Made by a program: the position numbers and the translations under genes. DNA of 26,673 nucleotides from the IMG/VR virus record IMGVR_UViG_3300017725_000058, positions 1 through 26,673 of that record, one strand, 5' to 3'. Shown here in pieces: positions 6,510 to 20,735 of the stretch; the first letter of the stretch is position 1, and every line of letters begins with the position of its first letter. Under the pieces are notes generated by a model. It worked only from the letters and a program-made list of their open reading frames with translations. It searched no databases and was not told the origin of the DNA. The DNA comes from a virus.

Positions 6510-7714
6510 ACTCTATACCTCGATAGTTGTGGTTCGATATTACAAGTTATCTCTCCATGATAGCCTGATATCTTATTCTTACTTATACACAATACTCGTG
6601 TAGTGTCAAGGGAATCTAAACTACCATGCTTACCTATGCCTATGATTAGGTCTGCCTCTGCGGCTTTACCTGTCTTAGAGTTCTCCATCATATCGAATGA
6701 TATGCTTGTCTTACCATGTGCATCTGCTGATGCTTGTGATATAGCTATAACACAACAGTCATGTCTCTTTGCTATCTCTCTTGCTCCTGTATATACAGCC
6801 CGTAACTTCTCATCTGTGCGTGAAAAATTACCCAGTACATTTACTTTATCTAACTGATCAATGATAAGTATGTCGGGCTTATGTTGCTCACAATGATTAT
6901 TGACATCATCAATAGTCCAATCAACAGTATCCATAAGTTTAACATTATCTTTTATATCCTTCCATTTATCTTTTGCTACGTCCATGTTATCTAGTATCTC
7001 TTCTTTAGTCATGCCTGTGTGTGCATTAATAACTCGCATCTGTGTCCTAACTGCAGGCTCTTCATTAATTAGTGCGTGTACCTTTGCTCCTTGTGATGCA
7101 AAACCTTGTATGCCACCTACTAGATTAACCCAGAATGCAGTCTTACCAGACTCTGGTCTGGCAAATAATATAACTAGATTGCCTGCACCTATGCCTGGAA
7201 CGTGTTCGTGTAAACTTGGTAAGTTAAACTCAAACTTAGTTTGTATCTCTAAACTTTCTATAAGTTCTCCTATATCATCTGTCACTGCTTCTTCTTCCTG
7301 AACTTCTTCTTGTGTACCCTCAAGTAAATCCTTGATATCATTGAAAGATCTGGAGTGACCATTGAATATATCTGTAGCCACTACTGCTACCTTGTGTGCA
7401 AGATTACGTTTGTGTACTGCAGTTAATATATCCTCAACAACATTTTCATTAGGCTCTTGTTCGTTTCTTATTTCATCTACCATAGATTCAAAATTAATCC
7501 TAGCCGCACGAGTAAGGGCAGGATTATATTTCTCTAAATGTAAATCTATAAGTTCATCTATTGATAAATCTTTTTCATAATCTTCATGGGCTTTTTGTAT
7601 AGTAGTAAAAACATTTCCAAGACCATTAGTAAATGTGGTCTTAGAAACTTTTGCTTTGTTCTTATCATAAAACTTTTTCTTTAATAGAAGTTTTATTAGC
7701 TGTCGTTCTTGCAT
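6506..7714 (-). CDS. DnaB-like replicative helicase
   Basis: A 402-residue RecA-fold helicase. The Walker A motif is A185-R-P-E-S-G-K-T192 and Walker B is D281-I-L-I-I-D-Q287. A later VIAISQAS strand (about 322-329) and a C-terminal SKTGKAAEADLIIGIGK segment match the motif 3 and 4 regions of DnaB and T7 gp4 helicases. The first 150 residues are helical and charged and would serve as the linker/oligomerisation part. Primase is encoded separately and just upstream, overlapping by 19 bases, unlike the fused T7 gp4; the polymerase follows with a 4-base ATGA overlap. It should form a ring that unwinds the fork ahead of the polymerase. Confidence 0.9.
   Translation of the reverse strand: MQERQLIKLLLKKKFYDKNKAKVSKTTFTNGLGNVFTTIQKAHEDYEKDLSIDELIDLHLEKYNPALTRAARINFESMVDEIRNEQEPNENVVEDILTAVHKRNLAHKVAVVATDIFNGHSRSFNDIKDLLEGTQEEVQEEEAVTDDIGELIESLEIQTKFEFNLPSLHEHVPGIGAGNLVILFARPESGKTAFWVNLVGGIQGFASQGAKVHALINEEPAVRTQMRVINAHTGMTKEEILDNMDVAKDKWKDIKDNVKLMDTVDWTIDDVNNHCEQHKPDILIIDQLDKVNVLGNFSRTDEKLRAVYTGAREIAKRHDCCVIAISQASADAHGKTSISFDMMENSKTGKAAEADLIIGIGKHGSLDSLDTTRVLCISKNKISGYHGEITCNIEPQLSRYRV
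6582..6609 (-). promoter_or_regulatory. Candidate promoter inside the helicase 3' end
   Basis: TTGACA (6604-6609), 16 bases, TATAAG (6582-6587) on the minus strand, about 70 bases before the polymerase start. It would give the polymerase its own transcript besides read-through from the primase-helicase unit. Confidence 0.5.
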
Positions 7715-8487
7715 AGTATCTCCTTTATCATTGCTGGTCTATAATATTTTAGGTCGTCTTTAAGTATAACTACCCTTGTCTTAAGTTTCATACTACTAAG
7801 TTCTTTTGCAATGTCAAATGATTTTGTAGTTGCGTCTCTGTCTAGTGCCACAATTACTTCTTTGTATTTACTTTGTATGATGGGTATAAATGTTTCTGGT
7901 AAACTTGTACCCATAAGTGCAACACCTGCAAAGTCTTGTGATACTGCACAAGCAGAGGCACAGTCCTCTACCAATACAGCCACATCACCTTCACCACATA
8001 TGTAGGGATAATCTTTTCTGCCATACACATACCACTTGGGCATCATGTCTGAACGCATGGCTCTACCTACACCACCAATTATATTGTGCTTGTCATCTTG
8101 TATCATGAACACAGCTCTATGATTCTGTGGATCATATTGTATGTTAGCATTACCCTGATTGTATGCCTCAATACAGTTGTTTCTGCTTAAGTATTTTGCT
8201 ACTGTGTGAGTAGAATGTCCAGGCTGAAAGTGGCTGGGTACTTTCCAATCTATTTTATCTTCTGATTTTTTCTTTACCATATAAGTAATATCCTCCATTG
8301 TTTTGTCTGTGTCAATAACTCCTTTAGCATTACAAGAAGCACTGAAGCAATACCATTTCATCTGTCCACTTTCTTTGGTTAGCTGTAAGGTATTGTTATG
8401 AAAGCAAAAAGGACAATCCATTCTTATGGACTGTCCTGTATGTATGGGTATGTTTTGTATTACTTCTTTTTGTTCTCTGTAATTCAT
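7696..8487 (-). CDS. DNA primase (zinc finger plus TOPRIM)
   Basis: A 263-residue primase of the DnaG/T7 gp4 type. Its zinc finger uses C25-x2-C28 and C47-x4-C52. The TOPRIM core has the catalytic glutamate E174 (VLVED) and the D216-R-D218 pair (VALDRDAT). It makes RNA primers for the lagging strand and should work with the helicase gene just downstream, which it overlaps by 19 bases. There is no Shine-Dalgarno sequence before the ATG. Instead a TTGACA-17-TATAAG promoter ends six bases upstream, so the predicted transcript starts at or next to the ATG: a candidate leaderless mRNA. Confidence 0.9.
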   Translation of the reverse strand: MNYREQKEVIQNIPIHTGQSIRMDCPFCFHNNTLQLTKESGQMKWYCFSASCNAKGVIDTDKTMEDITYMVKKKSEDKIDWKVPSHFQPGHSTHTVAKYLSRNNCIEAYNQGNANIQYDPQNHRAVFMIQDDKHNIIGGVGRAMRSDMMPKWYVYGRKDYPYICGEGDVAVLVEDCASACAVSQDFAGVALMGTSLPETFIPIIQSKYKEVIVALDRDATTKSFDIAKELSSMKLKTRVVILKDDLKYYRPAMIKEILCKNDS

Positions 8488-8493
8488 GCTTTG

Positions 8494-8522
8494 CTTATAC
8501 CATGATTGGTAGCTTATGTCAA
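8494..8522 (-). promoter_or_regulatory. Consensus promoter for the primase, leaderless spacing
   Basis: TTGACA (8517-8522), a 17-base spacer and TATAAG (8494-8499) on the minus strand. Only six bases (CAAAGC) separate the -10 box from the ATG at 8487, so the transcript would start at the start codon. The -35 box abuts the 3' end of the candidate structured RNA upstream. Confidence 0.75.
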
Positions 8523-9007
8523 GTGATTATGAAGCTTGCGCCCCAGATTTCTCTAAAAGAATCACACCTGGGGCTTGCCCCCTTCATAGCTGCGCGCGTT
8601 TACCTCCAGCCAGGGGGCGTGGATCACTTTCTCTCGAGAACAGTATTCGCGATCCCGATTGTACTCTTAAGCCTCTCGCATACACCGAGACCAGGTGGTA
8701 GGTAGCGAACCTAACGCTCTCTAAAAGTACAATCGGCATAGCGATTGTGGGTGGGGGATGCCTGTGCCGTTGATGGCTAGTACCTCGGATATACTTTAAG
8801 AAAAACTAGCAATAATTCTTAACGATTATATTTAGACCCGTCCCCCATAATTTGGGTGGGGGTGCCCAGTAGGCTTCAGATTGTAACTGGCTTTCGGTAC
8901 CGTAACCTGCACCCCCATAATGTGGGGTAGGCAACGACCAAGCCCACCCCTTGAATACGAACACTACCTCTGTAGCATGCTTTGTGTTTTACTATGCTCG
9001 TAATCAA
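8521..9007 (-). ncRNA. Candidate large structured noncoding RNA (about 490 nt)
   Basis: This stretch has no convincing gene on either strand and is 50-58% G+C in the lines counted, against about a third in the genes around it. On the minus strand it starts just after a TTGACA-17-TAATAT promoter. The transcript folds into many perfect helices. These include a 9-bp hairpin (8942-8950 with 8924-8932), an 8-bp helix (8909-8916 with 8858-8865) and a 16-bp helix with two G-U pairs (8721-8736 with 8656-8671). A nested 3' domain is closed by 8623-8629 with 8521-8527, then 8582-8587 with 8529-8534, then 8568-8573 with 8541-8546. Some segments have two exclusive partners. No U-tract terminator is visible. 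It lacks RNase P, tmRNA and group I intron core motifs. It could belong to, or resemble, the large phage RNAs GOLLD or ROOL. Confidence 0.7.
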
Positions 9008-9013
9008 TATGGT

Positions 9014-9042
9014 ATATTAACACTTCTTTGGCTCTGTGTCAA
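9014..9042 (-). promoter_or_regulatory. Strong promoter for the candidate structured RNA
   Basis: TTGACA (9037-9042), exactly 17 bases, TAATAT (9014-9019) on the minus strand. The next coding start in that direction is more than 500 bases away, so the main product must be the RNA spanning 8521-9007, unless it serves as a long leader for the primase. Confidence 0.75.
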
Positions 9043-9046
9043 GTCG

Positions 9047-9373
9047 TTATATTAAATTACTAACACTAGATAGTTTTAACTTTCTACCTTTAGGTGTCAC
9101 CTCAACAGTATACATATTACCATTGAATTTAATCCATTGTAATCTAGATAGAGATACATTGATATACTTAGAGTTAACTGTGTCCCATACAATCATGTAG
9201 TCTTTAGGGTCAGTAGTTCTGACACCACCCTTAAGATGTTTAGTAACATTGAACTTACAGTTAGCAACTCTAGTGCTATCGTCTTTCTTTATAAAGCAGG
9301 CAGAGAAAAACTTTGCTCCTACTCGCTTTCTTATTTCACCTTCAAAGTCTAGGCGTTTTATTGATTCAGTCAT
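9047..9373 (-). CDS. Small beta-rich phage protein, possibly SH3-like fold
   Basis: A 108-residue protein with an excellent start: AAAGGAGG lies four bases before the ATG. The central part alternates strands and turns (FFSACFIKKDDSTRVANCKF, then YMIVWDTVNSKYINVSL and NGMYTVEV-like strands). It resembles small phage proteins annotated as SH3 beta-barrel proteins, which share an F-x-K-x-DGS-x-R start and a later VWD/YD strand. The function of that family is unknown. It follows the gene at 9393-10073 by only 19 bases and its stop lies close to the promoter of the structured RNA. The fold assignment is tentative; the gene itself is secure. Confidence 0.75.
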   Translation of the reverse strand: MTESIKRLDFEGEIRKRVGAKFFSACFIKKDDSTRVANCKFNVTKHLKGGVRTTDPKDYMIVWDTVNSKYINVSLSRLQWIKFNGNMYTVEVTPKGRKLKLSSVSNLI

Positions 9374-9392
9374 GTGACCTCCTTTGTTGTTG

Positions 9393-18909: not shown

Positions 18910-19126
18910 AAAAAGAATTTCAAGAACTGTTCCATTTGGTTATAAAGTAAGTGAGCAGGATAATAAGTTATTAGAGCCGATCCAAGAGGAACTTGAAGCT
19001 ATAGAACAAGCAAAACAATATATTAAAAGTTGTTCCTATCGAGAAGTTGCTGGTTGGGTAGAAAGAAAAACAGGCAGATATATATCTGCACCAGGCTTAA
19101 GAAAGGTGTTGTCAAGAAGTGAATGA
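18878..19126 (+). CDS. Small HTH-like protein upstream of large terminase, 82 aa
   Basis: The protein contains RTVPFGYKVSEQDNKLLEPI, then EELEAIEQAKQYIKSCSYRE, and VAGWVERKTGRYISAPGLRK. The PFGY start and the later SYREVAxWV...ISxxGLRK unit recall the C-terminal recombinase region of serine recombinases and may form a helix-turn-helix. No catalytic resolvase domain is present, so it is a stand-alone accessory. This type of gene is common just before the large terminase in marine phages. The start could be 18878 or the ATG at 18893 (MSLGHKKR); neither has a strong ribosome binding site. Confidence 0.7.
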   Translation: MGNETMSLGHKKRISRTVPFGYKVSEQDNKLLEPIQEELEAIEQAKQYIKSCSYREVAGWVERKTGRYISAPGLRKVLSRSE

Positions 19127-20735
19127 TATACCACCACCTAAAAAGAAAAAGAAAAGTATAGCTAAAGCAAAACGATCTGCTAAAGCTAGCATTAGTGATA
19201 TAGCTAAACAAGTACAAAAAGCAAAAGATGATTATCACAATGCACAAAAAAAATTAAAGAATAAAAAAGAAGCTATTAAAAAAGCTGACAATGTTCTAGA
19301 AAATAAACAAAATATAGTTGTTGAAGATGATCTAGAAATAATACCATCAAATGTAAAAAAGGCAGTACAAGAACAAGAAGTTATATTTGAACCTAATGAA
19401 GGACCTCAAACACAATTTTTAGCTGCATCAGAACGAGAAGTATTTTATGGTGGTGCAAGAGGCGGAGGTAAATCATATGCAATGCTTATTGATCCACTTC
19501 GTTATTGTGATAAGGCAAAACACAGATGTCTACTATTAAGACGTTCAATGCCAGAGTTAAGAGATTTAATTAATCACTCACAACAATTATATCCTAAAGC
19601 ATACCCTGGTGCTAAATGGAGAGAACAAGAAAAAGAATGGAGATTTCCGTCAGGGGCGAAAATAGAATTTGGATACGCTGAGAACACTACTGATGCACTT
19701 CGATATCAAGGTCAATCTTACACATGGATTGGAATCGATGAGCTACCACAATATCCCAATCCAGATATTTATAATTTTCTAAGGTCATCTCTTCGATCAG
19801 TAGATCCAGAGATACCAGTGTTTATGAGAGCAACAGGCAATCCAGGTAACGTTGGATCAACATGGGTAAAAGAAATGTTTGTAGATCCTGCTACTCCTAA
19901 TACAAGGTTCTCTATAAATATTCAAACACCAGTTGGTAATAGGTCTATAACTAGAAGATTTATACCAGCTAAGTTACAAGATAATCCTTATCTAATGCAA
20001 ACAGAGGATTATTATATTATGCTAGCCTCTTTGCCTGAAGTGCAAAGAAAACAATTCTTAGAAGGAGATTGGGGAGCTTACGAAGATGCTGCTTTTCCTG
20101 AGTTTAATAGAGCAGTTCATGTAGTTGAACCCTTTGACATTCCTAGAAATTGGCATAGGTTTAGATCTTGTGACTGGGGATACTCATCTCCCGCATGCGT
20201 ACTATGGTTTGCAATTGATTTTGATAATAATCTTTGGATTTACAGAGAACTATATACAAAAAAAGTTGTAGCAGATGTATTTGCAAGAAAAGTATTAGAG
20301 ATGGAGAATGGTGAGTATATTCGTTATGGCATATTAGATTCTAGTACCTGGGCACGAAGAGGTGATGTAGGTCCAAGTATAGCAGAAACAATGATAACTG
20401 CAGGATGCAGATGGCGACCATCTGATAGATCACCTCGAAGTCGTATAAATGGTAAATTAGAATTGCACAAACGTTTATCAGTTAGAGATAAAGGAGATAC
20501 AAAACAACCATCCCTTTTTGTTTTTAATAATTGTATAAATTTAATACGAACACTACCTCTACTACCGTGTGATAAAAATAATCCAGAGGATGTTGATACA
20601 CACACAGAAGATCATGCATACGATGCATTACGTTATGGATGTATGTCTCGCCCCATTAACCCACAAGGAAATGGTTTTGATGATTTTGGTAAAAATAAAA
20701 CATTTAAACCAGCAGATAGAATATTTGGATACTAA
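19119..20735 (+). CDS. terL: Terminase large subunit
   Basis: The DNA-packaging motor and nuclease, 538 residues. Walker A is G111-G-A-R-G-G-G-K-S119, Walker B is I204-G-I-D207-E208, and the coupling motif is T239-G-N-P242. The nuclease metal residues are D352 (SCDWGYSS), D407 (YGILDSS) and D498 in HTEDHAYDALRY. The N-terminal 80 residues are lysine-rich and helical and are not part of the usual core. The start is a GTG at 19119, overlapping the previous gene by eight bases; an ATG at 19123 is in another frame. It should cut concatemers and pump DNA through the portal encoded downstream. Confidence 0.95.
   Translation: MNDIPPPKKKKKSIAKAKRSAKASISDIAKQVQKAKDDYHNAQKKLKNKKEAIKKADNVLENKQNIVVEDDLEIIPSNVKKAVQEQEVIFEPNEGPQTQFLAASEREVFYGGARGGGKSYAMLIDPLRYCDKAKHRCLLLRRSMPELRDLINHSQQLYPKAYPGAKWREQEKEWRFPSGAKIEFGYAENTTDALRYQGQSYTWIGIDELPQYPNPDIYNFLRSSLRSVDPEIPVFMRATGNPGNVGSTWVKEMFVDPATPNTRFSINIQTPVGNRSITRRFIPAKLQDNPYLMQTEDYYIMLASLPEVQRKQFLEGDWGAYEDAAFPEFNRAVHVVEPFDIPRNWHRFRSCDWGYSSPACVLWFAIDFDNNLWIYRELYTKKVVADVFARKVLEMENGEYIRYGILDSSTWARRGDVGPSIAETMITAGCRWRPSDRSPRSRINGKLELHKRLSVRDKGDTKQPSLFVFNNCINLIRTLPLLPCDKNNPEDVDTHTEDHAYDALRYGCMSRPINPQGNGFDDFGKNKTFKPADRIFGY

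Follow-up and report, generated by a model that had tools for sequence, protein, structure and literature searches.

The window, by which we mean the whole stretch of DNA analysed here, is a virus record of 26.7 kb (IMGVR_UViG_3300017725_000058; 26,673 nt) with the primase, helicase, DNA polymerase and Cas4-type exonuclease genes on the minus strand and the terminase and portal genes on the plus strand. Its closest primases are those of Pelagibacter phage HTVC033P (41%) and HMO-2011-type roseophages, and the large terminase subunit (TerL) shares 75% identity with its HTVC033P counterpart. On these grounds the virus belongs to, or near, the HMO-2011-type group. The locus of interest is the interval between the primase gene (7696-8487, minus strand) and a phrog_2267 gene (9047-9373, minus strand), and it is considered here together with the TerL gene (19119..20735, plus strand; phrog_979, E 3e-58), the message of which is the proposed target of an RNA encoded in the interval.

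No gene lies between 9047 and 8487, and the GC content of 45-56%, against 30-37% in the flanks, bears out the gene-free, GC-rich island described in a first-pass annotation. The promoter named there, TTGACA, 17 nt and TAATAT, was likewise found (9014..9042, minus strand, reading from 9042 to 9014) and carries the TG of an extended -10 element; counted over the entire region, promoter-like matches are no more frequent than chance predicts (13 found, 13.0 expected). The interval folds beyond its shuffles on the minus strand (-179.8 vs -151.9 kcal/mol, z -4.55, 0/100 shuffles) and on the plus strand the z value is -2.0; the unusual stability is on the minus strand only. Among the helices reported earlier, the 16-bp one corresponds to a 23-nt inverted pair with 87% complementarity (8647-8669/8722-8744), and the perfect 9-bp helix is present at 8857-8865/8909-8917. 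A coding origin was rejected, as no conserved reading frame runs across the interval and the plus-strand ORFs at 8502-8705 and 8516-8701 are not conserved because the segments on which they sit, the cassettes described below, are missing in relatives. Searches with cmscan against Rfam 15 gave no match at gathering score for the window or for seven relatives, and at E<=10 the sole match of the interval was a weak one to STnc560 (E 0.78, 16.4 bits vs 55). The known classes, including GOLLD, ROOL and c4 (RF01695), were rejected on this basis, and the structured phage RNA is, as had been suspected, of a class missing from Rfam. Further, a tRNA/tmRNA search of the window found none.

Common to the relatives is a core of 85 nt (8923..9007, minus strand) consisting of the helices P1, P3 and P4 and recognised in the window by covariance model R2 (63.9 bits, E 2.3e-12), which was built from six distant-clade sequences only. 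The 5' strand of P1, TTGATTACGA (8998..9007, minus strand), pairs with the 8949-8959 region (96.5% of cells paired, three pairs with two-sided changes). The P3 hairpin GCUA-CAGAGG-UAGU (8963..8976, minus strand) is nearly invariant with 100% of cells paired, and P4, a GC-rich terminator hairpin GGGGUGGGC...GCCUACCCC (8924..8950, minus strand), shows two-sided changes in five of its nine pairs. For the covariation analysis, 26 distinct sequences were placed in a model-guided alignment, a procedure that leans towards the given structure; in it 98.5% of cells pair, compared with 34-57% for slid versions, eight pairs have two-sided changes (five in P4 and three in P1) and covariation is scored at 0.393 (0.177 for shuffles). 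Covariation among relatives thus supports the fold. A MAFFT alignment of the two clades was discarded together with its RNAalifold result because it misplaced P1. P1 and P4 contain many G-U pairs, and since these cells would be A-C on the opposite strand, the RNA is read from the minus strand, which is also the strand of the promoter and of the T-tract.

Of 47 loci selected by primase alone, about 40 have an R2 match to the RNA, located upstream of primase, and several of those without a match are on contigs that stop short of the RNA's place. The same core, with its stem sequences replaced, occurs in distant contigs with primases about 55% identical (G011 and G015), and a pattern scan enlarged the set to 43 stretches in IMG/VR. 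The pattern scan of 84,980 prokaryote genomes found no core RNA, and the isolated phages gave no match to it. It is near certain that these sequences represent a previously undescribed, phage-encoded RNA family with a conserved fold.

The surroundings of the core differ between clades. A -35/-10 pair precedes the RNA in L010, L013 and the window clade; it is missing in the distant clade, in which the RNA begins anywhere from 18 nt after to about 33 nt before the stop codon of an upstream gene that is of at least six kinds. There, the RNA is probably cut from the 3' end of an mRNA. At its own 3' end, P4 is directly followed by the T-tract in cassette-free relatives, and P4 with TTTTT is seen in L010 and other relatives; the core of L010 ends in GGGGATAGG...CCTATCCCC-ATTTTT, an intrinsic terminator. 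A conserved structured RNA with its own terminator is what is expected of a phage trans-acting base-pairing sRNA. The primase has a separate promoter, TTGACA-17-TATAAG (8485..8522, minus strand), that is kept in all relatives, even where a methylase gene stands between RNA and primase. The primase ATG lies where expected, 7 nt past the TATAAG -10 element, and the primase mRNA is probably leaderless because of this short distance.

Several further features of the neighbourhood were observed. A DNA cytosine methylase-like gene lies between the sRNA and primase at positions 634-1563 of L010, 3050-3979 of L013 and 132-998 of L022, with the primase promoter kept at its far end; in L010 and L013 it separates a core of about 95 nt from primase. 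In L004, L005, L008, L009, L014 and L017, distinct small ORFs (45-75 aa) have been inserted precisely where the 9047-9373 homolog has its stop codon, and in these relatives the -35/-10 of the sRNA promoter overlaps or directly adjoins the end of the inserted ORF. Additionally, a second modular RNA-like element, structured and promoter-led (TTGACATAGCGAT...TATTAT, then hairpins), precedes the phrog_2267 gene in relatives of both clades (about 1780-1930 in L006, 209-345 in L018 and 1901-2093 in L237). Its parts are exchangeable, and it is absent from the window (about 9374-9392).

Alignment of the interval to 24 primase relatives revealed a mosaic: the block 9048-8853 is present in nearly all of them, and the remainder is missing in clean steps. 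The interval is retained to about 8849 in L006 and L007 before joining primase, and only to about 8918 in L016. The earlier description of one conserved large RNA of about 490 nt is therefore replaced by that of an 85-nt core to which the remaining approximately 380 nt have been added as hairpin cassettes, precisely gained and lost between P4 and its T-tract, so that the closest relatives carry from 0 to about 410 extra bases. In core-only relatives (L016, L223, L227-L229, L237 and L240) the sequence reads P4-A(C)TTTA-TTGACA, and cassette carriers have M2, M3 or both between CCCAC and TTTA, with CCCACTTTA repeated at the junction. Cassette M2 (ATTATGGGGG...CACCCCCACCC; 8854..8921, minus strand) shows precise presence and absence, also in the distant clade (L162 and L230-L233). 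M3 (AATTATGGGGG...CATCCCCCACCC; 8749..8853, minus strand), which has the same termini, is missing in L003, L008, L014 and L015 and stands alone after the core in L245. The two have the ends TTATGGGGG...CCCCCACCCAC in common, with differing interiors, and each occurs in both clades. Both copies of ATTATGGGGG that the first-pass annotation had pointed out are present (8842-8856 and 8912-8926, minus-strand reading), and the shared 5' ends of two cassettes account for the two exclusive partners better than a switch would.

In the window lineage M2 and M3 are followed by MC, MD, ME and others. MC (8621..8746, minus strand) comprises the long helix of 15-16 bp and the following small hairpin and is missing in L004, L006, L016, L018 and others; MD (GCCCCC...GGGGGC; 8577..8620, minus strand) has other hairpins in its place in L008, L009 and L005; and ME (GCCCCAG...CTGGGGC; 8540..8576, minus strand) is a further hairpin cassette. 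The cassettes lengthen the RNA and lie outside its conserved unit. Elsewhere in IMG/VR contigs no M2/M3-type cassettes were found beyond this locus, apart from two further pattern matches with unrelated interiors, and a transposon or mobile-element reading was rejected as copies elsewhere were not found. Among M2 variants (8854-8921, minus strand, and the M2b of relatives), a palindrome centred on GUAC is kept while its arms change together (CGGTACCG, GAGTACTC, TGAGTACTCA), which suggests either a loop-loop dimer or a GUAC hairpin of 2-3 bp.

A comparison of the 551-nt interval with its own genome gave one further match only, antisense to terL (20540-20560; E 5.6e-4). The segment concerned, AGAGGUAGUGUUCGUAUU (8954..8971, minus strand), is an 18-nt perfect complement to the TerL mRNA at AATACGAACACTACCTCT (20543..20560, plus strand), and it is the most conserved stretch of the RNA. 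It lies partly in the P3 loop, which presents its AGAGG end, and partly in the strands of P1 and P3. When targets were ranked in the five genomes carrying both RNA and terL, the TerL site formed the best duplex in four and the second best in G011; in the window the predicted duplex reaches -29.4 kcal/mol, against -23.9 for the next site, and stays first once unfolding costs are paid. Long conserved complementarity to a distant mRNA, a hallmark of trans-acting sRNAs, was thus found at rank 1 or 2 in all five genomes. Matches to the 18-nt target in prokaryote data were limited to three unrelated MAG contigs, so that no target in a cellular host was recognised. In L131, L134, L140 and L144 the 18-mer was set aside, as it lies there in an unrelated frame (NTNTTS) and about one chance match is expected in the collection.

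Joint change of seed and target gave a mixed picture of one matched change and one mismatch each in two lineages. In G015 and G028 the RNA has AGUGG for AGAGG (A-to-T), matched by CCACT for CCTCT in terL (T-to-A). G011 and G034 each have one mismatch at their own TerL site, and both of their RNAs pair better with the window's TerL. As mixed RNA-TerL pairs sometimes beat own pairs, this coevolution matrix was excluded from the support. The seed itself is base-paired within P1/P3, and most of its changes are transitions that also preserve the internal helices; because they are also compatible with these helices, the seed changes do not discriminate. Long TerL contigs of the same clade and without a primase match were also seen (G020, G012, G017 and G018).

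On the terL side, ten bases, GAACACTACC (20548-20557), are unchanged in 37 TerL genes of >=85% identity, four synonymous sites included; elsewhere in terL, fourfold sites are invariant in just 14%. This stretch comes first among 351 windows with at least four synonymous sites, for a window length of 10 nt that was picked post hoc, and windows fixed by RNA conservation rank 52 of 665 (12 nt) and 204 of 1135 (18 nt). Among 44 TerL genes at 72-75% identity the codons of the site vary freely (ACA/ACT, TTA/TTG/CTA/ATG, always AGA/AGG), and the RNA is missing from the near-complete genomes of this type, G013 and G014, and from HTVC033P. Taken together, the constraint on the terL side and the absence of the RNA in these relatives favour a working pair of RNA and target, without amounting to proof.

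Based on these sequence comparisons, we propose a new phage sRNA family that may act in trans as an antisense RNA on the phage's own TerL mRNA, a function to which we give about an even chance. In the window lineage, the RNA would be transcribed from its own promoter on the strand of the replication genes, and in the distant clade it lies at the 3' end of whichever gene precedes. It folds into a 5' stem-loop domain (P1/P3) followed by the intrinsic terminator P4, which lies shortly ahead of the primase promoter; between P4 and the T-tract, the window lineage has accrued additional hairpin cassettes. In the cell, AGAGGUAGUGUUCGUAUU would then pair with the TerL coding region near the 3' end of the mRNA, beginning at the exposed P3 loop (AGAGG) and afterwards opening P3 and P1; the 5' domain alone is predicted at -13.2 kcal/mol and the duplex at -29.4. 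The TerL message may in this way be repressed or destabilised until late, while the replication genes are active. A pairing site deep in a coding region is less usual for repression.

The same locus could instead be a structured 3'-UTR and terminator only, which terminates the preceding operon ahead of the primase promoter and makes the upstream mRNA more stable, with a 5' domain serving RNA processing or protein binding and a coincidental match to TerL. The position of P4 and its T-tract directly before the primase promoter fits such a role, as do the promoterless RNAs of the distant clade that overlap or closely follow the stop codons of upstream genes of at least six kinds, and the TerL windows chosen a priori are without exceptional constraint. 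However, conservation of the 5' domain and of its unpaired AGAGG loop goes beyond the needs of a terminator, the window clade has acquired a promoter of its own, and the 18-nt match (E 5.6e-4) is the top site in four of five genomes; on balance we consider this explanation rather unlikely. The reading as one giant ornate RNA, either a divergent GOLLD/ROOL type, as first suggested, or a new one of about 490 nt, has in its favour the stable minus-strand fold with several hairpin domains in the window, yet it is contradicted by the core-only relatives, in which 85 nt are conserved and the rest are dispensable cassettes. With no Rfam match, even at E<=10 in the case of GOLLD and ROOL, and no tRNA nearby, it is hardly credible.

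Two other readings accept the complementarity and assign it a different meaning. The sRNA might be directed mainly against the TerL mRNA of co-infecting relatives rather than its own, in superinfection competition: the site is common to most of the TerL clade, and two of four RNA lineages pair better with the TerL of another phage. Against this, the RNAs of the window and of G015/G028 have their best partner in their own TerL site, and one-base differences may be drift, so that we judge it improbable. Carried further, the sRNA would be a weapon against competitors, with which the first phage in a cell silences packaging by a later arrival; small changes in its own terL would make self-silencing milder, and the cassettes would be exchangeable extra RNA parts. 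This version we regard as distinctly improbable; if true, an abundant marine phage group would hold an RNA-interference-like weapon with its seed fixed on packaging-motor codons common to competing relatives. Finally, the complementarity is equivalent to one DNA word being present in inverted copy, and it might reflect a DNA-level motif, such as a site for a packaging or replication protein, that the RNA locus and terL have in common. Yet G011 and G015 each contain exactly two occurrences of GGTANTGTTC, one in the RNA and one in terL, and the RNA copy is part of helices whose compensatory changes and G-U pairs are meaningless in DNA, which makes a DNA motif very improbable.

If the sRNA does target the terminase message, it would represent post-transcriptional early-to-late control on packaging in a lytic marine phage. 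The growth of a phage RNA can also be followed at this locus, with a terminator-ended core of 85 nt accreting hairpin cassettes at one precise point, and the clades differ in that the RNA is embedded in a 3'-UTR in one and has its own promoter in the other. HMO-2011-type phages have been described as a dominant group with a broad distribution in the ocean (PMC9038755), and a term search of the main text of that paper gave no mention of small or non-coding RNA. Phage antisense sRNAs are known as a kind (sar, c4 and PAK_P4as15; PMC12197685), and the present family is new to Rfam 15. A limited open-access literature search found no phage antisense sRNA on a terminase message.

Among the known systems, sar of phage P22 is transcribed beside its target and is not known to have sequence kinship with the present RNA, whose locus and proposed target are 11.5 kb apart on opposite strands and whose action would fall within the TerL coding region. 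The likeness to sar lies in a similarly short phage RNA with perfect complementarity to a phage mRNA, here a predicted one; sar (68/69 nt) pairs with ant mRNA as a trans-acting antisense sRNA (PMC12197685). The c4 antisense RNA (RF01695) is likewise a structured phage antisense RNA, to the Rfam model of which the present RNA has no match. PAK_P4as15 of Pseudomonas phage PAK_P4 has been proposed to hold down a late gene, endolysin (PMC12197685), and both RNAs are thus proposed to act against a late phage gene, PAK_P4as15 being a cis-antisense RNA of about 550 nt and the present one trans-encoded with a conserved core of about 85 nt. GOLLD and ROOL are large, ornate and often found beside tRNA islands, and GOLLD, often >800 nt long, keeps its 3' region (PMC12286853). 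As phage-encoded structured non-coding RNAs absent from most annotations they resemble the present RNA, which has an 85-nt unit in place of a large conserved fold and no tRNA in the window; the retained portion is on the 3' side in GOLLD and on the 5' side (85 nt) in the present RNA, which varies in its 3' part.
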